This document shows positions 7,323 through 39,192 of a stretch of 39,694 nt of DNA, in pieces. Location of the stretch: NCBI GenBank assembly GCA_028692715.1, contig JAQUWU010000043.1:1-39694 (forward strand), given 5' to 3'. This stretch comes from Paludibacter sp. (GTDB lineage Bacteria > Bacteroidota > Bacteroidia > Bacteroidales > Paludibacteraceae). Below the pieces are notes generated by a model. It saw nothing but the letters and a program-made list of their open reading frames with translations. It had not been told where the DNA came from and did not search any database. The stretch's first letter is position 1, and each line of letters starts with the position of its first letter. The position numbers were made by a program, and so were the translations under genes.

Positions 7323-7331
7323 AAATATATG

Positions 7332-7664: not shown

Positions 7665-7687
7665 GTGCAAATAACTCAAATTTGCAC
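7665..7687. repeat. 8-bp inverted repeat
   Basis: GTGCAAAT (7665-7672) and ATTTGCAC (7680-7687) pair around a 7-nt loop. There is no T-run, so it may be an operator or a fossil of a mobile element rather than a terminator. Confidence 0.4.
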
Positions 7688-7802
7688 AAAAATGAATTTT
7701 GATATTGTATTGATTTATAGGTATTTACATATTTGCTCCTGCCTGTTGAAAAGCCTGTAAAAAAAATATTTTATTATGAACTGATGTTAATTGAATTATT
7801 AA

Positions 7803-7811
7803 TATCTTTGC
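7803..7811 (+). promoter_or_regulatory. Possible -7 element of the menaquinone operon promoter
   Basis: TATCTTTGC matches TAnnTTTG plus C, 38 bp before the menI start. A matching TTTG at the -33 position is not visible, so only the -7 element is called. Confidence 0.4.
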
Positions 7812-7848
7812 ATCCTTTGTTTTTATTCTTAAGAATTTATTTTTAAAC

Positions 7849-8268
7849 ATGAAATATACTCCCGAAACAATAAATGATTTGTGTAAAAACACAATGATTG
7901 AGCATCTTGGAATAGAATTTATTGAATTCACAGATGCTAAAATTGTAGCAAAAATGCCTGCTGACGAACGTACTTTTCAACCTGCAAGACGATTACATGG
8001 TGGAGCTTCAGCTGCTTTAGCTGAAACTGTTGGTAGCGTTGGTTCGTTTTTATTGGTTGATAGTTCAAAGTTTCATGTGTTGGGAGTTGAAATTAGTGCG
8101 AGTCATGTTGCCACAACATCCGAAAGTGAGGTTTTTGGTATAGGTACTATAATACATCAAGGCAAAACTTCGCATGTATGGGAGATTCGTATTGAAGATA
8201 AGAATGGAAAACTTATTTCAGTTGCTAGATTAACGAACAGAATCGTAGCAATAAAATCTGTAAAATAA
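7849..8268 (+). CDS. menI: Hotdog-fold thioesterase, probable DHNA-CoA thioesterase
   Basis: A 139-residue PaaI/YdiI-type hotdog thioesterase. The segment RRLHGGASAALAETVGSVGS (47-66) carries the conserved His-Gly-Gly (H50) and the acidic catalytic residue E59. GVEISASHVATT and the SVARLTN C-terminus complete the pattern of E. coli MenI, which hydrolyses 1,4-dihydroxy-2-naphthoyl-CoA to free 1,4-dihydroxy-2-naphthoate. Hotdog thioesterases vary in substrate, so the assignment rests on its position as first gene of a run with menF, menD and menB, all of the same pathway. The length is normal for the family. Confidence 0.8.
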   Translation: MKYTPETINDLCKNTMIEHLGIEFIEFTDAKIVAKMPADERTFQPARRLHGGASAALAETVGSVGSFLLVDSSKFHVLGVEISASHVATTSESEVFGIGTIIHQGKTSHVWEIRIEDKNGKLISVARLTNRIVAIKSVK

Positions 8269-8312
8269 TTAATAGATACTCTAATTGTTAAAACGATAAT
8301 TCATTGAGAAGT

Positions 8313-10453: not shown

Positions 10454-10560
10454 TCACAATAAATGTGCAAATTATAAACGTAATATAACCATTGAATTAA
10501 CTAGATTCTATGTTTATTTAGAGAAAATAAATTGTAAATGATTAAATAGTAAATAATCTT

Positions 10561-18517: not shown

Positions 18518-18539
18518 AGTTTAATAAATGAAATTTTGC

Positions 18540-20537: not shown

Positions 20538-22561
20538 ACTTCGTTTGGAGCTTTATACTTATTCCACTCATAGCAATATGCCTTATTCCTTTTCTGAAAA
20601 TGAAAGGAAAAGCCATTGCTGTTTATAGTGTTATAAGTTTTATAGCTATCCTTTTCGGTTATTTGGCCATTCAGGCTTTGAGTGGACAAAACTTTCATAT
20701 CACCTTAGCAGGAAGTTATGTCAGTGGTCCCATAAATTTAGAACTGGACTCTCTTTCAGCCTGGTTTATACTGATTATCAATTTTGGATTTATTACCGGC
20801 GGTTTCTACGGTTTGTTTTATATGAAAGCATATATTGATCAGCCAAAGAATTTGAATTTACACGGGATTTTATTTATACTACTTCAAACGTCGTTAATAG
20901 CTTTATGCGTTATACAAAATAGCATCGTTTTTCTTGTTGCCTGGGAAATCATGGCACTTTCAGCATTTCTGACAATTATTTTTGAACATGAAAAAGTGGC
21001 AACTCTCAGAGCCGGTATCAACTTTCTGATACAGGCACATATTTCGATTCTCTTTCTGATGATTGGATTTATCTGGGTGGCGAGTCAAACCGGAAGTTAT
21101 GATTTCAGTGCCATTCACAGTTATTCAATCACACATTCGGAGCCGGTCTCATTGATGCTATTTTTATTCTTTTTTATTGGTTTTGCCATTAAAGCAGGTT
21201 TTGTTCCTTTTCACACCTGGCTACCTTACGCCCATCCAGTTGCACCGGCACATATTTCCGGAATCATGTCCGGAATACTGATTAAAATTGGTATTTTCGG
21301 CATACTTCGGATGCTTTTACTTATTCAGGTAGATTACACCACGGTTGGTGGTATTATTTTAGTTGTTTCAATTATCTCGGGAATTTATGGCGTAATGCTG
21401 GCCATTCTTCAACATAACCTAAAAAAATTACTCGCCTATCATAGCATTGAGAATATTGGAATTATAGGTATCGGAATCGGATTGGGATGCATTGGATTGG
21501 GAATCAACAGTCCAGTGCTTAGTTCATTGGGATTTGCAGGTGCTTTGCTGCACACGCTCAATCACTCACTTTTCAAAACGCTCCTATTTTATACCGCCGG
21601 TAATGTTTATCAGGCAACCCACACGCTTGATATTGAAAAATTGGGCGGAATAGTCAAAAAGATGCCACAGACAAGCATTCTGTTTCTGATTGCAGCTCTT
21701 GCTATTTGCGGATTACCGCCGTTTAATGGTTTTATTTCCGAATTCATTCTTTATACAGGTCTATATCATTGGCTTCAAAACGCCCAAATGGGTTCTTTAA
21801 TCAGTATTATTTTTACGGTTACGGCATTAGCAATGATTGGCGGATTAGCTCTGATGTGTTTTACAAAAGCTTTTGGAGTCGTTTTTCTGGGAAATCCACG
21901 ACATACTTTTCAACACGAGGTTAAAGAAGTGCCGTTCCCTCAATTAATACCTTTATATGTAATTGCTGCATTTATACTGCTTATTGGATTATTTCCCAAG
22001 ATATTTCTGGATATTCTGATACAACCGGTACAACTGTTCACTGGCTTGCAGCAACTTCCTTTTGCAAATTTTCAGGGAAATGATCTCGAAGCGTTGACTT
22101 CAATCAGTCATGCAAGTTGGTATCTGATAGGAATGGTTTTGTTGCTTTTGGGAATTAAAAAATGGGTATTGCATACACGAACAGTAACTGTTTCGCCTAC
22201 CTGGAGTTGCGGATACATGGCTCCAACAGCTAAAATTCAATATACAGCGAGTTCGTTTGTAAAGACTTACAGCAAGTTGTTTGGAATATTTTTTATAATT
22301 CCCAAAAAAGAGACGGAAGTACACGGTATTTTTCCTGCCGAAGCACATCTCGAAACACACCCTTACGATAAAATTGAGAAATGGTTGATTGATTACCCTA
22401 TTGTCAATTTCAAAATTTTTATGGGGCGCTTCCGTTTCTTTCAAAACGGGAGATTGCAATTTTATATTTTGTACGGAATCATCTTTGTTATATCTATTAT
22501 TAGTATTCCACTTTTGTACGACAAAATTATTCAGTTCATTGAATTTTTAAAACAACTTTAA
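20534..22561 (+). CDS. hyfB: HyfB-like antiporter-type membrane subunit (second, tandem copy)
   Basis: A 675-residue paralogue of the preceding protein with the same organisation: LDSLSAWFILIINFGF, FLVAWEIMALSAFLT with the TM5 Glu, AIKAGFVPFHTWLPYAHPVAP with HISGIMSGILIKIGIFG, NLKKLLAYHSIENIG, LFKTLLFYTAG, and GLPPFNGFISEF. The extension WSCGYMAPTAKIQYTASSF again matches HyfB. The two proteins are similar over their whole length, so this is a tandem duplication that has diverged. The ATGA overlap with the first copy indicates translational coupling. Hydrogenase-4 operons normally carry HyfB plus HyfD and HyfF as separate antiporter-like subunits. Here the second HyfB may take the place of HyfD. 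Confidence 0.9.
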   Translation: MNFVWSFILIPLIAICLIPFLKMKGKAIAVYSVISFIAILFGYLAIQALSGQNFHITLAGSYVSGPINLELDSLSAWFILIINFGFITGGFYGLFYMKAYIDQPKNLNLHGILFILLQTSLIALCVIQNSIVFLVAWEIMALSAFLTIIFEHEKVATLRAGINFLIQAHISILFLMIGFIWVASQTGSYDFSAIHSYSITHSEPVSLMLFLFFFIGFAIKAGFVPFHTWLPYAHPVAPAHISGIMSGILIKIGIFGILRMLLLIQVDYTTVGGIILVVSIISGIYGVMLAILQHNLKKLLAYHSIENIGIIGIGIGLGCIGLGINSPVLSSLGFAGALLHTLNHSLFKTLLFYTAGNVYQATHTLDIEKLGGIVKKMPQTSILFLIAALAICGLPPFNGFISEFILYTGLYHWLQNAQMGSLISIIFTVTALAMIGGLALMCFTKAFGVVFLGNPRHTFQHEVKEVPFPQLIPLYVIAAFILLIGLFPKIFLDILIQPVQLFTGLQQLPFANFQGNDLEALTSISHASWYLIGMVLLLLGIKKWVLHTRTVTVSPTWSCGYMAPTAKIQYTASSFVKTYSKLFGIFFIIPKKETEVHGIFPAEAHLETHPYDKIEKWLIDYPIVNFKIFMGRFRFFQNGRLQFYILYGIIFVISIISIPLLYDKIIQFIEFLKQL

Positions 22562-22576
22562 AATAATTAATACCTT

Positions 22577-23482
22577 ATGTTGAGCTTAATATTAATCGTT
22601 TTAACAGCAACTTTTTTTACAGGGATTATAATCCGCACCAAAAGTATTGCATCTGGGAGAAAAGGTCCGGGTATATTTCAGCCAGTTAAAGATGTGATTC
22701 GTTTATTCAAAAAAGGGTCCGTGTATAGCGAGACATCCAGTTTTGTATTCCGCATTGCACCAACTATTTACTTTTCATCCGTTTTTGTAGCCATGCTGGT
22801 TGTACCATTCGGGCAATCGAAAGGAATAATCAGCTTTAACGGTGACTTTATTTTCTTTGCTTATGTATTGGGACTGGGCAAGTTCTTCAGTATAATCGGG
22901 GCAATGGATACAGGCAATAGCTTCGAAGGGATGGGAGCAAGTCGCGAAGCACTTTATTCTATGTTCGCAGAGCCCGCATTTTTCATTCTCATGGGCTCAC
23001 TTGCTTTATTAACAGGCTTTACTTCATTTCAGGAGATTTTTTCAGCTTTGCATCTGGGTTCACCAATAAGCTACGCGTTAGCCGTATTGGCTGCATTTGT
23101 TTTTTTAATGATTGCCATGATTGAGAACAGCCGCATGCCGATTGATGACCCTAAAACACATCTAGAACTTACCATGGTGCACGAGGTCATGATTCTCGAC
23201 AACAGCGGATTTGATTTAGGTTTGATATTGACAGCCGGATTTTTAAAATTTGCCATATACGGGACAATTATTTTTAATCTTTTTAATGGAACTATTGCCT
23301 ACGAATATGCTATTCCAATGTTTTTTGCCGTACAACTGTTTTTGGCTTTTACCGTTGGGATGATTGAATCGTTTATGGCTAGGTTCAGACTAAATCAAAA
23401 TGCACAGTTCATCGTGGTTCTTTCGTCAGTTTCATTACTTATATTTTTTGGAGCTTTACTAATCTCTGGGAAATTTATTTAA
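22577..23482 (+). CDS. hyfC: HyfC-like (NuoH-type) membrane subunit
   Basis: A 301-residue membrane protein of the respiratory-chain complex I subunit 1 family (NuoH/HycD/HyfC). This subunit links the soluble arm to the membrane arm. Family segments are GRKGPGIFQPVKDVIRLFKK (residues 28-47), AMDTGNSFEGMGASREALYSMFAEPAF (about 114-140), and ENSRMPIDDPKTHLELTMVHEVM (about 183-205), with the conserved acidic quinone/connection residues. About eight transmembrane helices. It starts 15 bp after hyfB. The sequence looks intact, so the coupling element of the complex is retained although the redox arm is altered. Confidence 0.92.
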   Translation: MLSLILIVLTATFFTGIIIRTKSIASGRKGPGIFQPVKDVIRLFKKGSVYSETSSFVFRIAPTIYFSSVFVAMLVVPFGQSKGIISFNGDFIFFAYVLGLGKFFSIIGAMDTGNSFEGMGASREALYSMFAEPAFFILMGSLALLTGFTSFQEIFSALHLGSPISYALAVLAAFVFLMIAMIENSRMPIDDPKTHLELTMVHEVMILDNSGFDLGLILTAGFLKFAIYGTIIFNLFNGTIAYEYAIPMFFAVQLFLAFTVGMIESFMARFRLNQNAQFIVVLSSVSLLIFFGALLISGKFI

Positions 23483-23483
23483 A

Positions 23484-23558
23484 ATACCTCATTATAAATT
23501 TTTTATTTCTTTGAATCACAGAAATTATTAATTCCTCATTATTAATTTTTAATTTAAA
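23484..23558. repeat. ATT-phased 7-bp periodic leader before hyfE
   Basis: Two blocks of heptamers mostly starting with ATT or ATA (23484-23511, four units; 23524-23558, five units such as ATTATTA, ATTCCTC, ATTTTTA). They are separated by a short unrelated stretch and end 4 bp before the hyfE ATG. The two blocks share CCTCATTAT followed by T-rich units. Very AT-rich, so part of the periodicity could be chance. Confidence 0.45.
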
Positions 23559-23562
23559 TCTT

Positions 23563-24195
23563 ATGTTACACGTACTGCTTATCATCTTTTTGATATCGCT
23601 CTTTTATCTGGCAATTGCCAACCGAATGTCCACTTATGTAAATATGCTGGCTTTACAAGGCGTGCTTCTATTTTTCGTCGCATTTTTAGAATTAAAGCAT
23701 ATCAATACAATAAATTTGATTTTAATTTTGTTGGAAACCATCATTTTTAAATCGGTGGCTGTGCCTGTTTTCTTGAATTATGTATTAAAAAGAAATCACA
23801 TAACCCGCGAAGCAGAGCCTTATGTCCCTAATTTTGTATCATTAATCATTACAACGATTATTGTTGTTACCACCATTATACTTTCCAATACTATGGACGA
23901 AGGGAATTTAGACAAAATGTTCTTTGTTGTGGCACTTTCAACACTTTTCACCGGACTCTATTTTATTGCATCTCGCCGAAAAATAATTACACATGTGATG
24001 GGTTATCTAATCATTGAAAACGGAGTGTTTGTATTATCGCTGGCTGTTGGTAACGAAATGCCGATGTTAGTGAATTTAGGAATTATGTTGGATATTTTTG
24101 CCAGTGTCCTTATTCTCGGCGTTTTCTTAAATAAAATCGGAGATGTATTTAAAGATATTGATGTAAATCAACTTACTAATTTAAAAGACTACTAA
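23563..24195 (+). CDS. hyfE: HyfE-like membrane subunit (NuoK-like)
   Basis: A 210-residue hydrophobic protein with about six or seven membrane segments, matching hydrogenase-4 component E. HyfE proteins carry a NuoK-like region. Here two acidic residues lie within membrane segments, in ILILLETIIFKSVAVPVFLNYVL (about 55-77) and YLIIENGVFVLSLAVG (about 148-163), as expected for a NuoK-type proton path. It sits at the HyfE position between hyfC and hyfF. The stop codon lies within the start of a REP-like repeat arm (CTAACCCCT). Confidence 0.85.
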   Translation: MLHVLLIIFLISLFYLAIANRMSTYVNMLALQGVLLFFVAFLELKHINTINLILILLETIIFKSVAVPVFLNYVLKRNHITREAEPYVPNFVSLIITTIIVVTTIILSNTMDEGNLDKMFFVVALSTLFTGLYFIASRRKIITHVMGYLIIENGVFVLSLAVGNEMPMLVNLGIMLDIFASVLILGVFLNKIGDVFKDIDVNQLTNLKDY

Positions 24196-24293
24196 CCCCT
24201 AGCCCCTAAAGGGGAATAAGACTAAGTATTTGAAAGAATAAAAAAATATACAAAATAAAACTAACCCAGTCCCCCTTTAGGGGTTAGGGGTAA
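24192..24293. repeat. REP-like inverted pair in the hyfE-hyfF spacer
   Basis: Left arm 24192-24217 and right arm 24270-24293 are near-perfect reverse complements, each with the CCCCTAAAGGGG-type core plus a flanking TAACCCC. They are separated by about 52 bp, the same spacing as the pair after menD. The left arm contains the hyfE stop codon. The right arm ends 11 bp before the hyfF ATG. Confidence 0.85.
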
Positions 24294-24304
24294 TACAACA
24301 ATTT

Positions 24305-25735
24305 ATGATATTAATATATTTAATAGGATCAATTTTAATTGGAGCGGGAGTCTTTTTCAATCGGGGAAAAAAGATAAATTACGGCTTGGTCAGCTTGTAT
24401 CTTATTTTACAAGTCGTTTTTACGGTTTATGCTTGTTGGCATTACAATCAGACAGCATCGACCTACTTTACATTCGATTCGTTGGGAATTATCATGCTGC
24501 TCACTGCTACCATTATTTCCATTCCTGCAGCTTTCCACAGTTATGTGTACATCGAAGAAAGTGAAGAAGCCACACCCGAATCGAGAGCCATTTACTTTGG
24601 GGCTTTAATACTCTTAATAACAGCTGTTAGTGCGGCTTATCTTGCAAATCATATTGCAGTGGTTTGGATTTTCGCAGAAGTAACCACGCTGAGTGCTTCA
24701 GCTCTTATCTATCATCACAGGAATAAGTTGGCTTTGGAAGGCACATGGAAATACGTTTTTATCTGTGCCATTAGCATTACTTTTGTTTTTATCGGCATTT
24801 TGTTTTTAAGTCTCTCGTTTGCCAATGTCGGTTCCGACGATTTATCCTATAAAAATTTATTGGCACATAGTTCCTTGTTGAATTCATCGTGGCTACAATT
24901 AGCTTTTTTGTTTATTTTCACCGGATTTACAGTTAAGTTAGGATTATTCCCCATGTTTACTGCCGGTGTTGATGCAAAAGACAAAGCTCCCGGTCCAGCC
25001 GCTGCTTTACTTTCGAGTGTCATCATGTGTATGGGTTTTGTCGGTATTTTCAGAATTTATATCGTTGTTGCCAATACTCCATTACTTCATTGGGCAAGTC
25101 TTGTAGTAGGTATCGCCGCTTTCATATCTTTATTTATTGCAGCGGTTTACATGGTAAAAGTAAAAAATATAAAACGAATGATGGCCTATTCAAGTGTGGA
25201 ACACATGGGTATTGTTATGCTTGGAATTGCTGCCGGTGGAATTGGTTATTATGCCGCAATACTACACATTGTGCTTCATGCATTTGTAAAATCAAGTCTT
25301 TTCTTTCAGTACAATCAAATGTATAAAGTATTTAAGACCAAGAATATTTATCAAATGGGAAATTACTTTAAATACAACACCACGGGTTCTATGGTCGTAC
25401 TTCTGGCTTTTATTAGCGTCACGGCCATGCCCCCTTCGGGAATGTTTGTGAGTGAATTTCTCGTATTTCGTTCCATGTTCGAAGCCAATCAATTGATATT
25501 ATTAATTGCCGTTTTATTGCTCCTGACATTTATTATCTGGGCATTTGCAAAAAACATCTTTAAAATTTTATTCATTCCGGTTGTAAATTTCGATGAGAGT
25601 AAAGTTCCTAGAGTTAGTCCATGGCGTTCAACCTTTCAGTTTATTTTGTTAGGAGGTTCTGCCTATTTGGGATTAAATCCACCAGCAATATTCGTAGACT
25701 TGATTAATAACAGTATTCTGCTTTTACCACATTGA
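24305..25735 (+). CDS. hyfF: HyfF-like antiporter-type membrane subunit
   Basis: A 476-residue NuoL/N-type subunit with about 13-14 membrane segments, matching hydrogenase-4 component F. It has VVWIFAEVTTLSASALIYHH (about 118-137, with the TM5 Glu), EGTWKYVFICAIS, FTVKLGLFPMFTAGVDAKDKAPGPAAALLS (about 201-230), NIKRMMAYSSVEHMGIV, HAFVKSSLFF and MPPSGMFVSEFLVF. Key Glu and Lys residues for ion conduction are retained. With the two HyfB copies this makes three antiporter-type subunits in one operon, implying several ion paths per catalytic cycle. Starts after a REP pair. Confidence 0.92.
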   Translation: MILIYLIGSILIGAGVFFNRGKKINYGLVSLYLILQVVFTVYACWHYNQTASTYFTFDSLGIIMLLTATIISIPAAFHSYVYIEESEEATPESRAIYFGALILLITAVSAAYLANHIAVVWIFAEVTTLSASALIYHHRNKLALEGTWKYVFICAISITFVFIGILFLSLSFANVGSDDLSYKNLLAHSSLLNSSWLQLAFLFIFTGFTVKLGLFPMFTAGVDAKDKAPGPAAALLSSVIMCMGFVGIFRIYIVVANTPLLHWASLVVGIAAFISLFIAAVYMVKVKNIKRMMAYSSVEHMGIVMLGIAAGGIGYYAAILHIVLHAFVKSSLFFQYNQMYKVFKTKNIYQMGNYFKYNTTGSMVVLLAFISVTAMPPSGMFVSEFLVFRSMFEANQLILLIAVLLLLTFIIWAFAKNIFKILFIPVVNFDESKVPRVSPWRSTFQFILLGGSAYLGLNPPAIFVDLINNSILLLPH

Positions 25736-25749
25736 AAAAAAAAAGATTT

Positions 25750-25805
25750 AAGAACCAAGAACCAAGAATCAAGACTCAGAACTCGTAACTAAACACTTGT
25801 AACTA
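25750..25805. repeat. Eight-unit degenerate 7-bp array before hyfG
   Basis: Eight consecutive heptamers: two AAGAACC, then AAGAATC, AAGACTC, AGAACTC, GTAACTA, AACACTT and GTAACTA. The register is exact and the array ends 3 bp before the hyfG ATG. It fills most of the 73-bp hyfF-hyfG spacer after a poly-A stretch. The units drift progressively from one end to the other. Confidence 0.75.
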
Positions 25806-25808
25806 ATT

Positions 25809-27308
25809 ATGAATTATATCAGCATAAAAAATAATCAGACCATTTTACTCTCGGATATTCCGGAAAGCAATTACGAATGGTTTTACGATAAGAATATCGA
25901 TTTAGTTTCGGGACATCCCGAGAGGCACTGCGTAAATTATTTTGGTTATAAATCGGGCAATAACATAAAACTGATTTGTTGTATTGCCGATGACTCTACG
26001 CACGAAATTTTAATTTCTACCTGCCTAGTAAATAAAGCACATAATTTGGAATCGTTTAGCAAAAAATTGTTGTGTTTTGAAAAATTTGAACGTGAGATTC
26101 ATGAAAACTTTGGCCTAAACTATATTGATCATCCGTGGTTAAAACCTGTACGTTATGCCAACAACAGATATGATAAGACTCAGGTTATTGCCAACTATCC
26201 TTTTTATTCCATTGATAGCGAAGAATTACACGAAGTCGGCGTTGGACCTATTCACGCAGGCATTATTGAACCCGGTCATTTTCGATTTATTTGTAATGGG
26301 GAGCAGATTTTACATCTTGAAATTCAATTGGGATATCAACACCGGGGCATTGAACAACTTTTTATCAAAAAGAAAAAACTACTTCAACGTGCCACTTTGG
26401 CTGAAAGTATAGCCGGTGATACAGCGGTTGGTCATAGTGTGACATTTGCACATGTTTGGGAAAGTTTATGTGATTTTCAGGCATCTAGAGATATTGAATA
26501 CTCCAGGACATTGGCGCTGGAGCTTGAACGACTGGCGATTCATGTAGGCGATCTAAGCGGTGCTTGTACCGATGTAGCCTACCAGTTAGGAAGCTCGGTA
26601 CTTGGCCGCCTGCGAACACCTATCATTAATTTTTTACAAGAATGGGGTGGAAATCGATTAGCAAAAGGATTAATCCGTCCCGGACGAAATCAGTTCCCAT
26701 TCACACCGGCATTGGCCCAACGTTTAAAAGAAGTTTTGGATATTTTTGAACCCGAGTTTAATGAAATGGTTGAAAAACTATTTTCATTGCCCAGCGCTTT
26801 GTCGCGTTTCGAACGAACCGGTGTTGTATCAAATGCTGATGCATTGTCAATTGGCGCAGTTGGTATGGCGGCGCGCATGACCAATTTAAAGAGAGATATT
26901 CGGACATCACATCCATTTAGCCTTTATGCTGAATTTGATCATCAGCCTATACTGAAACGTCACGGGGATGTTTATTCTCGTATTCAAATTCGGAAAGAAG
27001 AAGTTAAACAATCCATTTCATATATCCGAAAATTAATTTCTGAAGTAGAACCGTTAATAGAACAAGATCAAATTTTAAACACTCCAAAACCAAATTCCTT
27101 TTGTCTTTCATTAGTTGAAGGATGGCGTGGTGAAATTTGTCACTGTGCTTTAACCGATAAAAATGGAGAATTAATGCTTTACAAAATAAAAGATCCTTCG
27201 TTCCACAATTGGTTGGCTCTGGCTTTGTCCGTAAGAAATAACGAAATCTCAGATTTTCCGATTTGTAATAAAAGTTTCAATTTATCTTACTCGGGTCACG
27301 ATTTGTGA
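25809..27308 (+). CDS. hyfG: HyfG-like large subunit lacking all Ni-binding cysteines (NuoC-NuoD type)
   Basis: A 499-residue fusion of a NuoC-like N-terminal domain (1-115, ending FEREIHENFGLNYIDHPWLKP) and a NuoD/hydrogenase large-subunit domain with GPIHAGIIEPGHFRF (about 146-160) and YQHRGIEQLF. In group 4 [NiFe] hydrogenases the next motif is RxCGxC followed by H. Here the aligned segment is IAGDTAVGH, so the two cysteines are A202 and T205. The C-terminal DPCxxC motif aligns with FNLSYSGHD, giving S493 and G496. No Ni-Fe site can form, so it is not a hydrogenase. This matches the energy-converting hydrogenase-related (Ehr) type. The C-terminus is not processed-type. The true reaction is unknown. 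Confidence 0.88.
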   Translation: MNYISIKNNQTILLSDIPESNYEWFYDKNIDLVSGHPERHCVNYFGYKSGNNIKLICCIADDSTHEILISTCLVNKAHNLESFSKKLLCFEKFEREIHENFGLNYIDHPWLKPVRYANNRYDKTQVIANYPFYSIDSEELHEVGVGPIHAGIIEPGHFRFICNGEQILHLEIQLGYQHRGIEQLFIKKKKLLQRATLAESIAGDTAVGHSVTFAHVWESLCDFQASRDIEYSRTLALELERLAIHVGDLSGACTDVAYQLGSSVLGRLRTPIINFLQEWGGNRLAKGLIRPGRNQFPFTPALAQRLKEVLDIFEPEFNEMVEKLFSLPSALSRFERTGVVSNADALSIGAVGMAARMTNLKRDIRTSHPFSLYAEFDHQPILKRHGDVYSRIQIRKEEVKQSISYIRKLISEVEPLIEQDQILNTPKPNSFCLSLVEGWRGEICHCALTDKNGELMLYKIKDPSFHNWLALALSVRNNEISDFPICNKSFNLSYSGHDL

Positions 27309-27309
27309 T

Positions 27310-27405
27310 TAATGGGGTAATATGCTAATGAGGTAATATGATAATGGGGTAATATGCTAATGAGGTAATATGCTAATGGGGTGATCTGATAATGAGGTAA
27401 TCTGA
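27310..27405. repeat. Octamer-based tandem array upstream of the S23 gene
   Basis: Six perfect-length 16-bp units (27310-27405), each made of two 8-mers (TAATGRGG then TAATATGC/A or variants). Units 1, 3, 5 begin TAATGGGG and units 2, 4, 6 begin TAATGAGG, so there is a 32-bp higher-order repeat present three times. It starts 2 bp after the hyfG stop codon and ends 44 bp before the next gene. Confidence 0.9.
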
Positions 27406-27449
27406 TAATGAAAAAATAATCTAATTTACTTATATAACAATAATGATTT

Positions 27450-27797
27450 ATGGCTGGTAAAAATATAATTTTGGAGAAAAGCCTCGAATTTGCGTTAGAA
27501 ATTATTGAGTACGCAGAGATATTGGAAGCGCAACGGAAATATGTAATAAGTAATCAGTTGCTCAAATCAGGAACTTCCATCGGAGCAAATATCAATGAAG
27601 CACAATCTTGTGAAAGTCGTGCAGATTTTATCCATAAACTCAAGATTGCAGCAAAAGAAGCTCAAGAAACATCCTTTTGGTTAACCCTTTGCAACAAAGC
27701 AAACACTTATCCTTCAAACTTGTCATTACAAGAGAAATTAGAAGAAATACAAAGATTACTTTCAAGTATAATATCATCAACAAAACGTAATTCATAA
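27450..27797 (+). CDS. Four-helix-bundle protein (S23 / 23S rRNA intervening-sequence type)
   Basis: A 115-residue all-alpha protein of the TIGR02436/S23 family, known from 23S rRNA intervening sequences and related to the Avd accessory protein of diversity-generating retroelements. Diagnostic segments are LEKSLEFALEIIEYA (about 8-22), the helix-2 motif SNQLLKSGTSIGANINEAQSC (about 34-54, with S-G-x-S-I-x-A-N-I-x-E), and FIHKLKIAAKEAQETSFWL (about 60-78). Stand-alone copies are scattered in Bacteroidota genomes and their role is unknown. It interrupts an otherwise continuous hyf-like operon. It is flanked upstream by a TAATGRGG octamer array and downstream by an octamer array of opposite orientation, which suggests a mobile or formerly mobile cassette. 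Confidence 0.85.
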   Translation: MAGKNIILEKSLEFALEIIEYAEILEAQRKYVISNQLLKSGTSIGANINEAQSCESRADFIHKLKIAAKEAQETSFWLTLCNKANTYPSNLSLQEKLEEIQRLLSSIISSTKRNS

Positions 27798-27813
27798 ATA
27801 TACTCACATATCC

Positions 27814-27886
27814 CATTAGCTCATTAAAACTATTATCTTCCTCTTACATTAACACATTCTCTCATTAACCAATTAACACATTATCA
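27814..27886. repeat. CATTA-type octamer array (inverted family) before hyfI
   Basis: Octamers with consensus CATTAACA/CATTANCN: two units at 27814-27829 and five in strict register at 27847-27886, with a slipped section between. The array ends 2 bp before the hyfI ATG. CATTAACA is the reverse complement of the TAATGTGT-type unit of which the upstream TAATGRGG array is a variant, so the two arrays flank the S23 gene as inverted repeats. The 91-bp spacer has only one G. Confidence 0.75.
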
Positions 27887-27888
27887 TC

Positions 27889-28641
27889 ATGTTAGATAAT
27901 TTAAAAATAGTATACCACCAGGGAAAGCAATTTATTCCAAACCCAACAACAGTAGAAGTACCCGGTATTTTTAGGGGTCGACCTGTGATTAGTAGTGAGA
28001 AAGTGAATGAAACTGAACTGCTAAATTTATGTCCAACAGGTGCCATCACAAATAATCCAATAAAAATAGACCTTGGTAAATGCACATTTTGCGGAGAATG
28101 CGCCATGCGTTTTCCTGAAAAAATTTCTTTTACTAAAGATTACAAACTCTCCAGCAACGAACGAACCAATTTGATCGTCAAAGAAGGTGAAGATAAACCG
28201 ATTGAAGTGAATCCTGATACTGTTCGGGAAGAAATACATCGTGTTTTTGGCAGATCACTTAAACTCAGATCTATTTCAGCAGGTGGCGATAATAGCTGCG
28301 AGTGGGAATTGGGTGCAGCCAATAATGTACAATTTGATATAAGTAGATATGGGATTGATTTTGTAGCATCACCACGTCACGCCGATGGCATAGTTATTAC
28401 CGGACCCATAACAAAAAACATGACCGAAGCAATCCAAATCTGCTATGATGCGATGCCCGAACCCAAAATAATAGTACTCGTTGGTACTGATGCTATTAGC
28501 GGTGGGATATTTGCTGACAGTCCTGCCATTGATCGTAGTTTTTTGGAAAAACACAAGGTTGATCTTTATATTGCCGGTAATCCAGCACATCCACTCACTA
28601 TTATAAACGGATTTTTGAATTTAACCAGGATGGAAAAATAA
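27889..28641 (+). CDS. hyfI: HyfI-like small subunit fused to a ferredoxin domain, proximal cluster degenerate
   Basis: A 250-residue NuoB/HyfI-type subunit with an N-terminal ferredoxin domain. In the ferredoxin domain C48 (LCPTGAI) and C65, C68, C71 (CTFCGEC) are present, while the CP of the second motif is F75-P76. In two-cluster ferredoxins these four are the ligands of one cluster, so one [4Fe-4S] is kept and the other lost. The NuoB-like domain (about 120-250) aligns well (GRSLKLRSISAGG, FVASPRHADGIVITGP, AISGGIF, AHPLTIINGFL). Of the four proximal-cluster cysteines only C137 remains; the others are D134, D201 and N231. Together with the altered large subunit this indicates a non-hydrogenase function. 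Confidence 0.88.
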   Translation: MLDNLKIVYHQGKQFIPNPTTVEVPGIFRGRPVISSEKVNETELLNLCPTGAITNNPIKIDLGKCTFCGECAMRFPEKISFTKDYKLSSNERTNLIVKEGEDKPIEVNPDTVREEIHRVFGRSLKLRSISAGGDNSCEWELGAANNVQFDISRYGIDFVASPRHADGIVITGPITKNMTEAIQICYDAMPEPKIIVLVGTDAISGGIFADSPAIDRSFLEKHKVDLYIAGNPAHPLTIINGFLNLTRMEK

Positions 28642-31870: not shown

Positions 31871-32578
31871 TCAACGTTTAAGCCCAAATTTTTTATTTAT
31901 GGCTTCTTTTACATAATTAATGTGTGTATTGTTTCGAGCCTGAACATGTATCTCAAATTGATAACAAAGTTCGTTTTCTGAAATAAAGTTTACTTCAGGA
32001 TTGTTATTAATTATTAGCCAGGGTGATGCTAATAGCATTTTCCGTATGGCTGATTCCGTATTTTTTATGCTGTCGGTTTTATTTGTTTCGATGGCAAATT
32101 TACTTTCTTCAAAAGATTTTGTTTCCATTTTTTCCGAAATAACTTCAGAACTCAAGCGGGAATAGGGTATTTTGAGAAGTTTGTTCTCTTTTGTCTGAAT
32201 TAATATATGTGTCAGAAGCATTGATTCCAAATGTCCGTAGAAATTACCGAATTGAATATAATCCCCTTTTGTGAATTTATTTTGTAATCTGAATACGATA
32301 CCGGCGATGAAATCTTTCATAAAAAACCATCCTAATAAAGCACTTATTATTACAATGGTTGAGCTCATTACCAGATTATAGTAAACTTCATCCCTGAAAA
32401 GATATTTCATCGACCAAAATCCGACCACAACCCATATAATAGGAGAAATGACTGGAATTAGACGTTTTAAGTCGCTAATTAACCGATATTTTTTACTAAA
32501 TCTTTTTACTAAAATTCGGGCAAATTGAATTAAAAAGAATGTAGTTAAGACAACTATAAATACTATAATAACTTTCAT
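31871..32578 (-). CDS. MscS-family mechanosensitive channel-like protein
   Basis: A 235-residue membrane protein. Three hydrophobic segments (about 3-22, 37-60, 68-88) are followed by the MscS beta domain: MKDFIAGIVFRLQNKFTKGDYIQFGNFYGHLESMLLTH pattern at about 87-125 (split here for length), then LLKIPYSRLSSEVI. The rest is a C-terminal alpha/beta domain (about 150-235). This is the MscS pore-lining and vestibule layout, though the TM3 Gly/Ala packing is weak. It begins 21 bp after the stop codon of the 1694-residue permease-ATPase gene, so the two are very probably one operon. A role in osmotic adjustment (ion release on hypo-osmotic shock) is inferred from the family and from the neighbour. 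Confidence 0.78.
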   Translation of the reverse strand: MKVIIVFIVVLTTFFLIQFARILVKRFSKKYRLISDLKRLIPVISPIIWVVVGFWSMKYLFRDEVYYNLVMSSTIVIISALLGWFFMKDFIAGIVFRLQNKFTKGDYIQFGNFYGHLESMLLTHILIQTKENKLLKIPYSRLSSEVISEKMETKSFEESKFAIETNKTDSIKNTESAIRKMLLASPWLIINNNPEVNFISENELCYQFEIHVQARNNTHINYVKEAINKKFGLKR

Positions 32579-32599: not shown

Positions 32600-35500
32600 T
32601 TAATTTGTTGTTATATAGTCTGTTATGAAATTATCAATATATGGATTTATTACGAAAACGCCGGCTGATTTTTCTTTTATTAATCCGGCACGGATAAAGG
32701 CTTCTACAATGAGCACAATTTTACTTTCATTTATAAGTAAAACATTTTTCATTTTTGAAATAGTCATTCGTTTGTGTAACGAAATCTGATATAAAATAAC
32801 CTTCCAGTCATCAGGCAGATTTTCAAAAACCAATAAATTAGGTTTCTGAGGAGAACGAATTTCCAATTGGTCATTCTCAAATGATTTTACATTTGCAATC
32901 CAGGCATAGAGTGCTGCACCCGGATTCCCTTTCGAGAAGTTGAAATACTTATTGAAGAGACCGGCTAATTTTAGTTCGGAGATACCATCTTCAGGTTTGT
33001 TCTCAAAAATAAATTTCATTCCTCGCGATCTGTGACGAACCATAATCATTTCTTTTAAATCTTCCGAATTGAAAGGTTTACAGGTAATGATGCTAATAAA
33101 ACTGTTGGAGATATTTTGTGTCTTCTGAATGTGTTCGTAAGTTGCTGAATTCAGATTCACCACAAATAAGCATTTATCACTGTATTTCTTTATCAAATCG
33201 AGTAAAAGTTTGATGATTGTTAAACCTTTATCGGAAGATTCCCACCAAAGTTCAATGTCGTGAAAGAATAAAACACTATCCTCAGGTAGATTTTCGAATA
33301 TTTTATAAATGCTGCCTTCAATATTCAGGGCGTTATTTAATTCATGCTGAAAATCCGAAACAGTTACAGAGCCTTGCAGTGGCGGAAATATATTATATAC
33401 TGCCTGCTGATTGAAATGTTTTCGTGCAACATGCTGACAGAATGTGGTTTTTCCGGTATTTCTTTCTCCTGTAATTAATATTCCCCCGCGATATCCTGCC
33501 TTATAATGTTCTATTGCCTTGGCAAATTTCAATTCCTCTTCTTTTTTCTCAATCCAGAAGTCATCACTAATGCTGGATTTTCCACTAAATAAATTTTTAT
33601 AGTAGGATGGAATTGCCGTGTAAACAGTCGGATTAGGGCTTACAAGGTCAACAAGATTCAGATATGATTCGGATGAGTTAATATTGTATTCCTGTTTGTT
33701 GAGTAACCTTGCTAAAAGTATTCCTTCACTTTGCGAATACAACAAACGAACCGTTACTTTTTGAGTAATTTCTTTTATTGCATTAAAAAAACGATCTACT
33801 TTTCCTATATTCTTTTTCCCATGATATTCCCTGATAATGTGAGGTAATTCTTTGGTACTGTCCAGAATTTTATGTGAGTACAATGGTTCAAAAGCATTTT
33901 CAATACTTTTAAAAGTAGCAGATTTCAAGTTTTTTAATAGAAGTTCTATTTCCGTTTCACTTTCATTGATATTTGACAAAACATCATTAATAATAGTTTC
34001 AGCGGATTTATTTTCATTAGCGTCTTTCAGATTTTCAATTTCAAAATGCATGTAGCTAACCTGATCCTTAATTCTATAAGTAATTCTTTTTAGTTTATTG
34101 CCCAATACCTCAAAACCATCCTGCATTTCTCCTATCAAAAGTGATTCGGCAAAATGGCGTATCATTTTTTGAAGAGGTATGGTAATCAATTCATTCTCTT
34201 GTAGTTCTGCATAATTTACCCGCGTGATAGGCTGGCTGTAAATCGACACTTCTTCAGGTAGCTGTTCTATCATTTCCATGATACTTTCCTGAAATTTATT
34301 CATTATTTCGTCGGAATTATAGAATCCACTAACAATTTTTATTTCAACAATTTTATTGTTGTCATCTTTATTTCGATTAAACGTTAATAAATTGCTTTTG
34401 AAGATATCAATTTTGTTCGTCAATTCTTCGTAAATCAGGGTCTTGGTACTTGTATAATAATCAAATACCTGCCGTTGAACCCTGTTTTTTAGTTCCAGCA
34501 CTTGCAAGTCAAGCTGGAGTTTGTTTGCAACCGGTAAAATGGTTTCAAACCATTCCTTAGGGTAATTCTTGTTCTCTTCAGCCAGATCTTTGTAGAATTT
34601 ATCCGGCCTTTTTCTCTTGTCAATTGCTTTGTTAGCTTCTACTTTATCTAAATCGTAGGCTAGAAGTTGGATATTTTGCCTGAACTCCTCTAACATAGAA
34701 TTTCTGAAATGCAAATCGTATTTTGAAGTTGCTTCTTCAATGAGAGTGATCTTTTCCATCAAATCTGATTGAATACTGGACAGTGTTAATTTGTCGGAAT
34801 TATTTTCGGCAAATTCGTTACAAAAAATCTCAAGTTGGTTATCGAACACAAAAAGCCAGTTTTTAATATCAATATTAAATTGCAGACTCATGGTGTTGAG
34901 CTCCTTCAATGTGATTTTTAAATTTTGCTGGCGATTTTGTTGAATATAAAACCGGCTAAGTTTTCGTAATTCAACGTCATCCGAAATTGAGCTTTTTGCA
35001 AAAGGATTTAATAATTTTTTTAATCGTTTGTGTCTTCGAACCGATTTGCTATCAGTAGGTTGAATTCGAAATTCTGAAATTGGATAATCAATTGTTACTT
35101 TTTGTGGTATCACAAGGATTTCTTCAATCAATTGTGAATCATACCATTCGAGTCCCGATGTAAGTACAGATTTTTGAATTTCCATTTTATCTGACAAAAA
35201 CTGTTTTGTCAGTGCTAAAGCTTCACTATAAAGTTCATGTTGAATTTCATTTGTATAATGAATACAATCACCTGTAGATAATTTATTTATTGTTTTATTC
35301 AGTTTCCCGAAAATGGTGATATTTAATTTTTTTAATTCGCGTATATATTCATTTTGTTCTTTAAAATAGGGAACAAATACTTTTTTATAGAATTCCGAAA
35401 TTATTTCCAATCCTCTTTCGTCAAAATGATGAAGATGTTTATTCAGTACTTCATACTTTGTAGTGATTAATTCCGGTAAAATAATTGTGGTTGATTTGCT

Positions 35501-37684
35501 AATTTCTTTCTGAATAGTTTTTTGATCGATGCCTTTCAAACTATATTCCTTGAAATTAGCAGAAGCATTAATAAATAACATTGTTCCCATATTTTCAGTA
35601 AGGCCATTTACTTCATTATAAGTTTTTTCAACGTCTTGGAATTTTTTATCAGGAATTCCAACTATTGTTAAGTCTGTATTTCCCGATTCAAGTTTAATAA
35701 TTTCATTCCTTGTTAATTGTTCAATGCTATTATTGATAATTTTTATTTCAATTGTTATTCTATACTCTTCAAGAATAGTTGTCAGTGAATTGTAATATAT
35801 ATCAATTTTTGATGGATCGTTGCTGATGACTAATAGTCTTATCTTAGGACTATTCCACGATGTTGATGAGGTTAGGTGTCTTAAAAGATAGAGGGAAAAT
35901 GAAAGATTATTTCCCCAACCACTCCACCAAATATCAATAGAATTTGAGTTTCCTGTTTTTCTTTCAGGGTTGTAATTTAAATAGATAGAATTGAAATTGT
36001 TTTTCTCCAAACGGCTTATTAAATCTCCAAATTTTGATTTATTTTTTTCGTTTTTACTCCAGCCCATCAAAATGGTGTTCGGTTCAATGCCATTAAATCC
36101 GTAAACACGAATAATTTCATCCATTCCGGAGTATAAGTCGTGACAAGAATGATGATTTATAAAATACCCTTTTTTGCTTTTTTCAGTCATCAATTCAGAC
36201 TTTCTGGTCAAAACAGGATCGTCAGTAACTTCAAGTTCAAATCCTGTCAAAAGTCCCAATTTACCACAAATGTCTTGACCCAATTGAATCATATAAGGTC
36301 TTGATAATTCTTCGCCCGAGAACATAATAATGTTTGGACGCCAGTTGCGGTGGTTAATTGTATCTACATGAAGTTTATCTAATCCGAAGTTCACGAGTGA
36401 TGACCAGATACCTGACCATGCATCTCCCGATTCCAGTTGAATTTCTTTTCTTCTGATAAATAAATAAACTATTCCTAAGATAATTGAACCACCCAAGAGA
36501 GCCACAAAATCTAACTGAATCATTACAATTAAGCAAGCCAAAGCTCCAATGATACTTACCCAAGCCGGAGTTTTAAAGAGTGGACGAAAATCGGCACTGG
36601 TCAAACGCTCGAAAGCACAACTTAAATTCAGGAAGCCATAAGTGGTAATAAAGAAAATGGAAACAATGCGGGCAATAACATTTAAATCACCAATTAAAAT
36701 TCCTACTTCAGCAATAACAAAAGTCATTAACAATGCATTGCGTGGCTCATTGGTTTTCTTAGTTCCTTTCGCAAAAAATTTATGTGTTATTCTGTCGGTG
36801 GCAGTTGCTTGTAAAATTCTGGGAGCTCCCAAAATACTTCCCAATGCCGATGAAAGAGTTGCTCCCCAAATACCTGCAACCACTAATTCCGGAATCCAGG
36901 CTATTTTAAATAAGATGTTTGGATCGTTTGCCAACTCATTTCTGTCAACTGTATATGAAAAATAAAATGCAAGAGCTATATATACAACTAAACCTACAGC
37001 TATAGCTGATATTGCGCCCAGCGGAATTGATTTTTTTGGATCTTTTAAATCGCCTGACATCGAAACGCCTGCTTCAAAACCTGTAACCGCAGGAAAGAAA
37101 ATCCCGAATAAAACCATTATTGGAACGGCAGTTGTTGGGTCTGATACAAATGGTAACGAAGGTGCTAGGTCATGTTTTCCAAGGAAAACAGAAATCAATG
37201 AAAGAATGATAGCCGCCATAATTATATATTGAGTCTTTATGGCCAACGAAGTACTTATAAATGTGATGATGGTAACTAAAAGGAGTACAATCGTTCCGGT
37301 AAGTCGGATATTTTCAATATTGTCGGCGAATCCAAAATAATTTAGGAAACTCTCCGAGAAACCTATTAAATAAAGACTTACACTGAATGATAATCCTACA
37401 AATAATGCCAGTCCCAGTGTGCCACCAATTGGTAATCCTAAGCTTCGCGAAATCATATAATAGGTTCCACCGCCTTCTACCTTTTTGTCGGTGGCAATAG
37501 ATGATACACTTAAGCCTGTTGTTACAGAAATAAGGTGAGCTACTAAAATGATTCCTATCGAGGCGACTAAACCGGCTTGTCCAATAATCATTGGTAGCCT
37601 TAAATACATAATTACGCCTAAAATAGTAAGAATGGAAGGTGTAAACACACCACCGAAAGTTCCGAATTTATTCGATTTGGCCAT
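32600..37684 (-). CDS. Giant SLC12-like permease fused to a P-loop ATPase
   Basis: A 1694-residue fusion protein. Residues about 1-415 form a 12-helix APC-superfamily transporter of the SLC12 (cation-chloride cotransporter) type: FGGVFTPSILTILGVIMYLR (10-29), KVEGGGTYYMISRSLG, FPAVTGFEAGVSMSGDLKDP. Residues about 430-715 match the SLC12 cytosolic domain (NWRPNIIMFSG, IDIWWSGWGNNLS, TDLTIVGIPD). About 730-1350 is long helical/coiled-coil-like sequence that I do not recognise. The end is an AAA/STAND-type ATPase: Walker A G1406-ERNTG-K1412-T1413, Walker B D1476-IE, ITCKPFNSEDLKEMI, and a GNPGAAL sensor-like motif, followed by a winged-helix-like segment (about 1610-1690). No frameshift separates the parts, so it is one frame. 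It precedes an MscS-like channel gene by 21 bp. Confidence 0.88.
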   Translation of the reverse strand: MAKSNKFGTFGGVFTPSILTILGVIMYLRLPMIIGQAGLVASIGIILVAHLISVTTGLSVSSIATDKKVEGGGTYYMISRSLGLPIGGTLGLALFVGLSFSVSLYLIGFSESFLNYFGFADNIENIRLTGTIVLLLVTIITFISTSLAIKTQYIIMAAIILSLISVFLGKHDLAPSLPFVSDPTTAVPIMVLFGIFFPAVTGFEAGVSMSGDLKDPKKSIPLGAISAIAVGLVVYIALAFYFSYTVDRNELANDPNILFKIAWIPELVVAGIWGATLSSALGSILGAPRILQATATDRITHKFFAKGTKKTNEPRNALLMTFVIAEVGILIGDLNVIARIVSIFFITTYGFLNLSCAFERLTSADFRPLFKTPAWVSIIGALACLIVMIQLDFVALLGGSIILGIVYLFIRRKEIQLESGDAWSGIWSSLVNFGLDKLHVDTINHRNWRPNIIMFSGEELSRPYMIQLGQDICGKLGLLTGFELEVTDDPVLTRKSELMTEKSKKGYFINHHSCHDLYSGMDEIIRVYGFNGIEPNTILMGWSKNEKNKSKFGDLISRLEKNNFNSIYLNYNPERKTGNSNSIDIWWSGWGNNLSFSLYLLRHLTSSTSWNSPKIRLLVISNDPSKIDIYYNSLTTILEEYRITIEIKIINNSIEQLTRNEIIKLESGNTDLTIVGIPDKKFQDVEKTYNEVNGLTENMGTMLFINASANFKEYSLKGIDQKTIQKEISKSTTIILPELITTKYEVLNKHLHHFDERGLEIISEFYKKVFVPYFKEQNEYIRELKKLNITIFGKLNKTINKLSTGDCIHYTNEIQHELYSEALALTKQFLSDKMEIQKSVLTSGLEWYDSQLIEEILVIPQKVTIDYPISEFRIQPTDSKSVRRHKRLKKLLNPFAKSSISDDVELRKLSRFYIQQNRQQNLKITLKELNTMSLQFNIDIKNWLFVFDNQLEIFCNEFAENNSDKLTLSSIQSDLMEKITLIEEATSKYDLHFRNSMLEEFRQNIQLLAYDLDKVEANKAIDKRKRPDKFYKDLAEENKNYPKEWFETILPVANKLQLDLQVLELKNRVQRQVFDYYTSTKTLIYEELTNKIDIFKSNLLTFNRNKDDNNKIVEIKIVSGFYNSDEIMNKFQESIMEMIEQLPEEVSIYSQPITRVNYAELQENELITIPLQKMIRHFAESLLIGEMQDGFEVLGNKLKRITYRIKDQVSYMHFEIENLKDANENKSAETIINDVLSNINESETEIELLLKNLKSATFKSIENAFEPLYSHKILDSTKELPHIIREYHGKKNIGKVDRFFNAIKEITQKVTVRLLYSQSEGILLARLLNKQEYNINSSESYLNLVDLVSPNPTVYTAIPSYYKNLFSGKSSISDDFWIEKKEEELKFAKAIEHYKAGYRGGILITGERNTGKTTFCQHVARKHFNQQAVYNIFPPLQGSVTVSDFQHELNNALNIEGSIYKIFENLPEDSVLFFHDIELWWESSDKGLTIIKLLLDLIKKYSDKCLFVVNLNSATYEHIQKTQNISNSFISIITCKPFNSEDLKEMIMVRHRSRGMKFIFENKPEDGISELKLAGLFNKYFNFSKGNPGAALYAWIANVKSFENDQLEIRSPQKPNLLVFENLPDDWKVILYQISLHKRMTISKMKNVLLINESKIVLIVEAFIRAGLIKEKSAGVFVINPYIDNFITDYITTN

Positions 37685-38022: not shown

Positions 38023-39192
38023 ATGAAAAGAATTTATTTTATCCCGATAACACTAATTTGTCTGTTGTTTGCTGCTTGTGATGACGGAGGGTCTTATATG
38101 TCGGAAGATGGTTCGATGAGCTTATATGACAGTGGAAGTTCCGGTAGTAGTGAAACGGGAAATGGAAATGAACTGGAACCCGGAGTAATAACAGCCGGAG
38201 AATGGAACGATTTGGATCACTGGATGTTTCTGGATAGTGTCTTGACGGATTCTGCTTATGCCAAAATGCCCGAATACTGGGGTTACTATCATAATCACCG
38301 CGTTTCGGTAAAGGTGACCAATGCTTCTGATGCTCCTGTGATTAATCAGGAAGTCGTGCTCAAACGAAACGGAACAGCTATTTGGACTGCAAAAACGGAT
38401 AATGCAGGGATGGCTGAATTGTGGGTTGATTTATTCCAAAAAAGTGAAAATATTGATACCACTCAATTGCAACTTTCAGTGGGAAGTGTAATCCTTAATC
38501 AGGTTAAAACAATATCGGCGGGAGCAAATACTCTTATTTTTAATGGAGCTTCAACACTTTCAAATAAAGTTGAATTAGCATTTATGGTAGATGCCACGGG
38601 CTCTATGAGTGATGAACTTGAATTTTTGAAAACCGAATTGCTGGATGTTATTAATAGGGCAAAAAGTGATAATCCAACGCTAAATATGCTTACAGGCTCT
38701 GTATTCTACAGAGATAAAGGAGATGATTATGTGACACGTATCTCAAATTTCAATACTAATATCACAACGACACTCAATTTCATTAAGGATCAAAAAGCAT
38801 CAGGTGGCGGCGATTTTCCGGAAGCTGTTCATACAGCGTTGGATAAGTCAATCAATGAATTACAATGGTCAACTGATTCGCGTACACGCATTTTGTTTAT
38901 GGTTTTGGACGCACCTCCCCATTATGACTCTGATATTGTATCAAATTTACATTCATTGATAACACAAGCTGCAGTAAAAGGCATTAAAATTATTCCCGTT
39001 ACTGCCAGTGGAATTGATAAGGAAACTGAATTTCTGATGCGATTTATGGCTTTAACAACAAATGGAACGTATGTATTTATTACCAACGATAGTGGGGTAG
39101 GGAATGAGCATCTTCAACCAACTATTGGTTATTATCAGGTGGAATACCTGAATGATTTAATGGTCAGATTAATAAATAAATACGTGAAATAA
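38023..39192 (+). CDS. VWA-domain lipoprotein
   Basis: A 389-residue lipoprotein. The signal MKRIYFIPITLICLLFAAC ends in a lipobox with Cys19, followed by DDGG and a Ser/Gly-rich linker to about residue 55. Residues about 85-180 form a beta-rich domain with an invertible-repeat look (SVKVTNASDAPVINQEVVLK, AKTDNAGMAELWVDL), similar to immunoglobulin-like carboxypeptidase-regulatory folds. The von Willebrand A domain begins at about 185 with the MIDAS motif D190-A-T192-G-S194-M-S196, then MLTGSVFYRDKGDDYV, FPEAVHTALDKSI and ILFMVLDAPPHY. It probably faces the periplasm or cell surface and binds a partner through a metal ion. Partner unknown. It stands alone. Confidence 0.85.
   Translation: MKRIYFIPITLICLLFAACDDGGSYMSEDGSMSLYDSGSSGSSETGNGNELEPGVITAGEWNDLDHWMFLDSVLTDSAYAKMPEYWGYYHNHRVSVKVTNASDAPVINQEVVLKRNGTAIWTAKTDNAGMAELWVDLFQKSENIDTTQLQLSVGSVILNQVKTISAGANTLIFNGASTLSNKVELAFMVDATGSMSDELEFLKTELLDVINRAKSDNPTLNMLTGSVFYRDKGDDYVTRISNFNTNITTTLNFIKDQKASGGGDFPEAVHTALDKSINELQWSTDSRTRILFMVLDAPPHYDSDIVSNLHSLITQAAVKGIKIIPVTASGIDKETEFLMRFMALTTNGTYVFITNDSGVGNEHLQPTIGYYQVEYLNDLMVRLINKYVK

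Follow-up and report, generated by a model that had tools for sequence, protein, structure and literature searches.

A bacterial SLC12-type transporter fused to a helical stalk and a STAND-like ATPase, encoded beside an MscS-type channel gene: a candidate module for ion and turgor control

Human cotransporters of the NKCC and KCC groups are set by phosphorylation according to cell volume and chloride. MscS channels are usually viewed as passive tension valves, regulators of the TrkA/Ktr type are RCK rings, and STAND NTPases typically carry a superstructure-forming domain after the winged helix. The effect of TrkA on TrkH depends on the nucleotide, closing with ADP and opening with ATP, according to the part of the source drawn on here (PMC6987127). 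For NKCC1, the portions used of two articles (PMC7035313, PMC9784483) give Asn298, Ile299, Tyr383, Pro496 and Thr499 as K+ ligands, and Leu297, Trp300, Ala610, Ser613 and Ser614 as a putative Na+ site.

Here, we describe a locus found in a window of 39,694 nucleotides (the whole stretch of Paludibacter sp. DNA that was analysed), in which a single protein unites a helical stalk and an ATPase with a bacterial relative of human salt cotransporters (table 1). A literature search returned neither a description of such a system nor any regulator built into a prokaryotic SLC12 protein; within the literature searched, the preliminary description of this DNA was right that no system of this architecture has been described. 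Each part is known; what appears to be new is the family of regulators and the way it is paired with MscS and with exchangeable transporters.

Table 1. Features of the fusion gene and its partner gene, in window coordinates.
Feature	Coordinates	Strand	Basis
1694-aa fusion protein, whole ORF	32600..37684	-	single 1694-codon frame
SLC12/CCC transporter domain, residues 1-430	36395..37684	-	AA_permease (PF00324), 154 bits; KCC2 and NKCC1 structure matches
SLC12-type cytosolic domain, residues 431-715	35540..36394	-	KCC2 alignment reaching residue 652; family alignment
Predicted tandem long-helix stalk, residues 716-1345	33650..35539	-	AlphaFold2; half-to-half hhalign
Predicted stalk tip 1, residues ~863-904, with basic stretch KSVRRHKRLKKLL	34973..35098	-	AlphaFold2 model, hhalign
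Predicted stalk tip 2, residues ~1146-1169	34178..34249	-	AlphaFold2 model, hhalign
ORC/STAND-like AAA+ ATPase with winged helix, residues 1346-1694 (a start at ~1357 is also given)	32603..33649	-	fold match
Walker A, G1406-T1413	33446..33469	-	K1412 in 54/55 SLC12-type rows
Atypical Walker B, residues 1475-1478 (H-D-I-E), then WW at 1480-1481	33251..33262	-	row conservation
R1550-H1551	33032..33037	-	row conservation, all five types
Y105, counterpart of the NKCC1/KCC K+ site tyrosine	37370..37372	-	KCC2 alignment; 67/69 rows; PMC7035313 (part of article)
S278-S279 (ATLSSAL motif), counterpart of the NKCC1 Na+ site serines	36848..36853	-	phmmer; 67/69 rows; PMC7035313 (part of article)
Partner gene, predicted 235-aa MscS-type channel	31871..32578	-	PF00924

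The fusion protein and its relatives

The preliminary description had reported an unbroken frame holding an SLC12-type transporter and an SLC12-type cytosolic domain that reaches to about residue 715, and both claims are borne out. Indeed, the frame is a single ORF on the minus strand, and SLC12 homology extends over both the membrane and the cytosolic domains: human KCC2 (7d14) matches at E 1e-81 and covers residues 5-652 in two stretches, further SLC12 structures match with E-values down to that of KCC2, and the NCBIfam model TIGR00930 (K-Cl cotransporter) gives 382 bits (E 5e-114), below its curated cut-off of 953 bits. KCC2 is the best structure match overall and NKCC1 the best for the Na+-site stretch; the sequence ATLSSAL is identical between the fusion and NKCC1 in the phmmer alignment.

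When the ion sites are taken from the portions used of PMC7035313 and PMC9784483, the fusion has retained Y105 (the K+ tyrosine), P198, T201, Y349 (the Cl- tyrosine) and the Na+ site serines S278 and S279; the TM1 tryptophan of NKCC1 corresponds to L22. Among 69 distinct fusion rows (78 minus the nine duplicates L004-L009, L012, L104 and L106, the last two being taken as duplicates of L038 and L037 because their contigs and ORFs have the same lengths), Y105, T201, S278 and S279 are each conserved in 67, Y349 in 68 and P198 in all 69. The same side chains are mostly kept in the stand-alone SLC12 genes of related genomes, a set of 21 rows that includes five truncated or split fusions (L010, L011, L019, L080 and L120). 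Judging from these residues, the SLC12 part is most likely a Na+-coupled K+/Cl- cotransporter able to load the cell with salt. Two fusions, L041 (6967-12006) and L042 (66-5024), have lost the K+ and Na+ site residues and retain the stalk, the ATPase and the MscS gene; they may be pseudo-transporters acting as sensors, with transport perhaps lost.

Two genes joined by an assembly error, the case in which the preliminary description would have failed, are ruled out by 68 further uncut fusions from several phyla. Ten more full-length fusions, besides that of Paludibacter sp. and 22-37 per cent identical to it, occur in 100 related genomes. A pattern scan with the ATPase alignment, run across 84,980 named species, each represented by one genome, confirmed 132 relatives, and the loci of 80 of these were examined; by record names, the carriers among these 80 belong to the Bacteroidetes/Bacteroidales, Ignavibacteriaceae, Calditrichaeota, Latescibacterota, Delongbacteria and Deltaproteobacteria, together with the myxobacteria Enhygromyxa and Plesiocystis and MAGs labelled Proteobacteria. 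As for homologues that keep all parts in one protein, an SLC12 domain lies in the same frame as the ATPase in 73 of 90 ATPase frames (two from duplicate contigs). Among the 17 frames without a visible SLC12 domain, 13 are cut by the contig start and L080 and L120 look frame-split; L141 and L152 lack the domain. Uncut fusions measure 1625-1836 aa from stop to stop, the partial frame of L111 being left out.

Within the genus group of the source genome, the distribution of the fusion is patchy: it is present in four of 48 genomes, the source genome counted, with a contig-edge fragment in one more (G013). Cultured carriers include Plesiocystis pacifica SIR-1, Enhygromyxa salina and Plebeiobacterium sediminum. 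Several of the named carriers, the first two among them, were isolated from marine or saline settings, with which osmotic control would fit.

Elsewhere in the window, positions 18528-28641 of the plus strand encode two Proton_antipo_M subunits, a 49-kDa-type subunit and an Oxidored_q6 subunit, which resemble a membrane-bound hydrogenase or Mrp-like complex, and the divergent neighbour of the fusion gene (38023-39192, plus strand) encodes a lipoprotein-like protein with a VWA_4 domain.

Stalk and ATPase

The region between the cytosolic domain and the ATPase is predicted by AlphaFold2 as two copies of a unit made of long helices, a two-strand tip and long helices (residues 716-1345; pLDDT 87.6, pTM 0.80). 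The first and second halves match each other with an hhalign probability of 95.1 over 106 columns, and no scanned family reaches its cut-off in this region. This predicted tandem stalk lends support to the earlier suggestion that the helical middle region would serve as a scaffold. Stalk alignments between types I, III and II (defined below) extend over more than 500 columns with hhalign values of 99.3 and 99.0 per cent, which long-helix comparisons can inflate and in which a coiled-coil bias is possible. A profile built from type I stalks detects the type III protein L054, unused in its building (19.9 bits, E 1e-5), and weakly detects L171, the one type IV locus tried (20.9 bits, E 7e-6); with positive controls responding, it found nothing in L166, the one type V locus tried, nor in the short type III loci L159 and L160. 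Comparison with a dynamin-like stalk (5oxf/5owv) scored below the level at which helical bundles are called related.

By fold comparison of the model, the C-terminus of the fusion consists of an AAA+ core followed by a winged helix. The match to archaeal ORC2 extends to the final residue (989 of the model), so that no superstructure domain of the STAND kind follows the winged helix, and the helical stalk precedes the ATPase; in the model of the middle region plus ATPase, the pTM is only 0.50 and domain placement is unsure. The best Pfam match of the ATPase part, AAA_22, reaches 20.8 bits, below its cut-off of 27, and NCBIfam gave sub-cut-off matches only for the stalk-ATPase part in the four members scanned. 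Taken together, fold and profile evidence supports a STAND-like C-terminal NTPase with a winged-helix-like end, as had been proposed with correct motif positions.

In SLC12-type (type I) rows, Walker A is canonical in 54 of 55, D1476 is likewise present in 54, and W1480 and W1481 in all 55. The Walker B stretch of the Paludibacter sp. fusion reads H-D-I-E against the canonical hhhhD(D/E), and D or E stands at position 1475 in 21 of the 55 rows. Across all five types, R1550 is found in 94 of 94 rows and H1551 in 84. Outside type I, a canonical Walker A is kept in 4 of 8 type II rows, 12 of 17 type III rows and none of 9 type IV rows; none of the 34 rows of these three types has D1476, and 32 carry an acid one place earlier. 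Given these departures from canonical Walker motifs outside type I, it is unlikely that all types work by ATP hydrolysis.

An ATPase family and its MscS partner

Profile searches detected the ATPase in 74 of 395 genomes of the phylum (E 1e-5) and in 73 of 393 genomes of the order (E 1e-10), many of them without SLC12. Architectures were read from 26 other 4-kb loci and 40 chosen longer stretches, selected proteins being scanned with Pfam and NCBIfam and the rest probed with phmmer; types were assigned by reading the loci, so that the counts given here partly define the types. In type I, SLC12 is fused to the ATPase and MscS follows. In type II (7 of 7 loci), a CPA2-type antiporter is fused instead (about 1500 aa), preceded by a membrane protein of about 417 aa and followed by MscS, then TrkH. 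Type III comprises a stalk-ATPase of about 930-1050 aa, or an ATPase of about 450 aa, then MscS (all 26 loci L050-L075 and nine longer stretches). The order is inverted in type IV, where MscS comes first and an ATPase frame of about 1025-1580 aa second (9 of 9 loci). Type V ATPases (about 750-830 aa) have a separate CPA exchanger in 5 of 5 loci, a detectable MscS in three and a small ORF in the MscS slot in the other two. No type could be given to seven of the 40 longer stretches, of which L184 and L185 are short contigs and L191-L195, in which no MscS was seen, hold weak, partial ATPase matches. Thus, the preliminary description gave the architecture correctly and was too narrow in its overall reading, since the ATPase is not specific to SLC12: other cation transporters occur fused to its relatives or encoded next to them.

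Several loci deserve mention in their own right. The gene order of a membrane protein of about 417 aa, CPA2-stalk-ATPase fusion, MscS and TrkH is kept in L161-L163 and L176-L179, and may constitute a self-contained K+ control operon; the TrkH gene of L162 is split over two frames. In the variant L164, labelled type II in the ATPase tree, TrkH lies upstream and MscS downstream of a 1466-aa relative (6062-10462, minus strand) with about ten hydrophobic N-terminal segments, a membrane part in which no Pfam family was found at E 0.01; an ammonium transporter gene lies further downstream. L159 (7899-10188) and L160 (5161-7504) show a reduced ATPase of about 450 aa with MscS, in a genus where seven of eight genomes have the ATPase.

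The preliminary description recognized the fusion itself and missed its most constant partner, the MscS-type channel gene, which begins 21 bases beyond the stop of the fusion gene. The MscS beta-domain (PF00924) scores 44.2 bits in its 235-aa product, above the cut-off of 20.2. Ten downstream genes of relatives are 18-23 per cent identical to this product, and among the nine scanned for PF00924, eight exceed the cut-off and one contig-cut copy falls below it. The partner is a predicted MscS-type channel, which would be gated by membrane tension.

Of 89 ATPase frames that leave at least 500 bases of room, 79 have an MscS gene on their own strand no more than 1.5 kb away (78 of 87 once two duplicate contigs are set aside); none of 16 stand-alone SLC12 genes has one in flanks of about 1.5 kb. 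Most fusion/ATPase-MscS pairs stand end to end, overlaps being overstated as frames run from stop to stop. The genome of the source contig has six MscS-domain genes, and at six per genome chance does not explain the adjacency. Frames without MscS despite sufficient room represent nine distinct loci or fragments, namely L038 (with its duplicate L104), L076, L105, L112, L126, L127, L128, L141 and L146; L076 is the closest relative of the Paludibacter sp. fusion. Upstream of the fusion gene and in opposite orientation to it, L130, L132, L133, L147, L150, L151 and L154 carry a second, longer MscS-like frame (563-640 aa).

Trees of both proteins follow these architectures. In the ATPase tree (94 rows; SLC12-type rows randomly thinned to 55, type III loci included only in part, L141 left out), the five types need four changes, which is the minimum, against a shuffled mean of 36.5. 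SLC12-type rows fall on one side of a branch with support 93; type I here includes several contig-cut fragments whose SLC12 part is unseen, and L152, which has none in frame. In the MscS tree of 107 proteins, the 87 partners sort by type with seven changes (minimum 5, shuffled mean 52.2), and the partners separate from 20 other MscS proteins with three (shuffled 18.7). As the partners sort by ATPase type and apart from other MscS proteins, the channels seem to have travelled with the ATPases. Since the ATPase also occurs without SLC12, and both trees sort by architecture, the core of the system is the ATPase, usually on a stalk, together with MscS; this is the constant part, and the monovalent-ion transporter is the variable and exchangeable one.

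Proposed function and its rivals

The transporters and MscS all move turgor-relevant ions, and TrkA-TrkH provides a precedent, which leads us to propose a nucleotide-responsive switch. From gene context and homology, we give somewhat better than even chances to the two genes forming an ion- and turgor-control module, in which the stalk-ATPase would switch uptake and mechanosensitive release in response to nucleotide. The SLC12 part would load the cell with salt through Na+-coupled K+/Cl- uptake, the downstream MscS-type channel would be the release arm, and the stalk-ATPase, fused to the transporter and encoded beside the channel, would be the switch. The stalk would change with bound nucleotide and with the condition of the membrane or cytoplasm; in its changed form it would allow uptake and hold back release, or vice versa, and so keep the two arms from opposing each other. 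Co-transcription, a physical complex, nucleotide control, the direction of transport and the signal sensed are what we infer here; the earlier suggestion of an NTPase that acts as a switch controlling ion flux is plausible. On a broader and more tentative reading, whose chances we place a little short of even, an unrecognised regulator family (ORC/STAND-like ATPase, usually a tandem stalk, and a dedicated MscS) would have been attached in evolution to unrelated SLC12, CPA2 and TrkH proteins and would serve as a general nucleotide-responsive turgor controller of bacteria.

Other roles can be imagined for the same parts. The AAA+ part could help to assemble membrane ion-transport complexes, the MscS channel included, or control their quality, rather than act as a gate, as its fold and its being encoded beside several unrelated membrane proteins might suggest. 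However, the non-canonical Walker motifs in most type II-IV rows are easier to reconcile with a switch or scaffold than with a remodelling machine, and the transporter is covalently tied to the ATPase in types I and II, which makes such a role unlikely. It also seems improbable that the transporter is mainly a sensor (a transceptor) whose regulated output is the MscS channel: ion-site residues are kept in 67 of 69 distinct fusion rows, even though L041 and L042 combine degenerate ion sites with a retained stalk, ATPase and MscS, and though one genus has the family reduced to an ATPase of about 450 aa and MscS, with the stalk undetected at the two loci tried.

A STAND-type defence or programmed-death device, with ion transporters and MscS as membrane effectors, would be consistent with the STAND-like AAA+ and winged helix, the patchy presence of the fusion in the genus group of the source genome, a sub-threshold nSTAND1 match in the relative L164 and one weak PADLOC match (mad8, E 2e-4) for L161. 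Nevertheless, neither the fusion nor the MscS protein was matched by PADLOC, nor were three of the four other relatives scanned, and no relative was confirmed when viral contigs were scanned with a single pattern. The ATPase is moreover present in 10 of 10 genomes of one genus, though in only 47 of 92 of that family, the nearest scanned neighbours on the contig match methyltransferase, ABC-transporter ATPase and VWA families, and the ion sites are conserved; we thus regard a defence role as quite unlikely. That the ATPase energises the transporter, making it a primary active salt pump, is suggested by the covalent fusion of the two and is very improbable, given that catalytic residues are altered in most sister types, that the NKCC-like Na+ site argues for secondary coupling and that ORC/STAND-like AAA+ domains are not known to serve as pump motors.

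If the proposed control of uptake and release by the stalk-ATPase is true, one bacterial nucleotide-responsive regulator would tie salt uptake to pressure release and would have been reused with at least three transporter families, and MscS-type channels would come under a dedicated ATPase. The module would then offer a simple system for studying how cells keep loading and release from cancelling out, and a role would be suggested for a large family whose stalk-ATPase part has only sub-cut-off NCBIfam matches in the four members scanned.

Among the closest described systems, MscS channels have the beta-domain in common with the partner, in which it scores above the curated cut-off, but the partner is short (235 aa) and divergent, and groups with the other ATPase partners. 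Whereas the bacterial dynamin-like protein (5oxf/5owv) has a GTPase domain, no match to one is found here, and two stalk modules stand in tandem. Unlike ORC/Cdc6 and STAND-like ATPases (archaeal ORC2, 2qen, MalT), the ATPase is fused to a membrane transporter, has an unusual Walker B with WW and has nothing after its winged helix. SLC12 proteins (NKCC1, KCCs) have a homologous transporter and cytosolic domain, with K+ and Cl- site residues in common and Na+ site residues as in NKCC1, but the fusion has almost no N-terminus ahead of the membrane domain, about 980 extra residues (stalk and ATPase) and an MscS partner gene. Finally, in TrkH-TrkA and KtrAB a cytosolic nucleotide-binding part, here a predicted one, is likewise tied to a monovalent-cation transporter, and TrkH itself is present in type II loci; the regulator described here is, however, AAA+/STAND-like on a helical stalk rather than an RCK ring, and an MscS-type channel is encoded alongside it.
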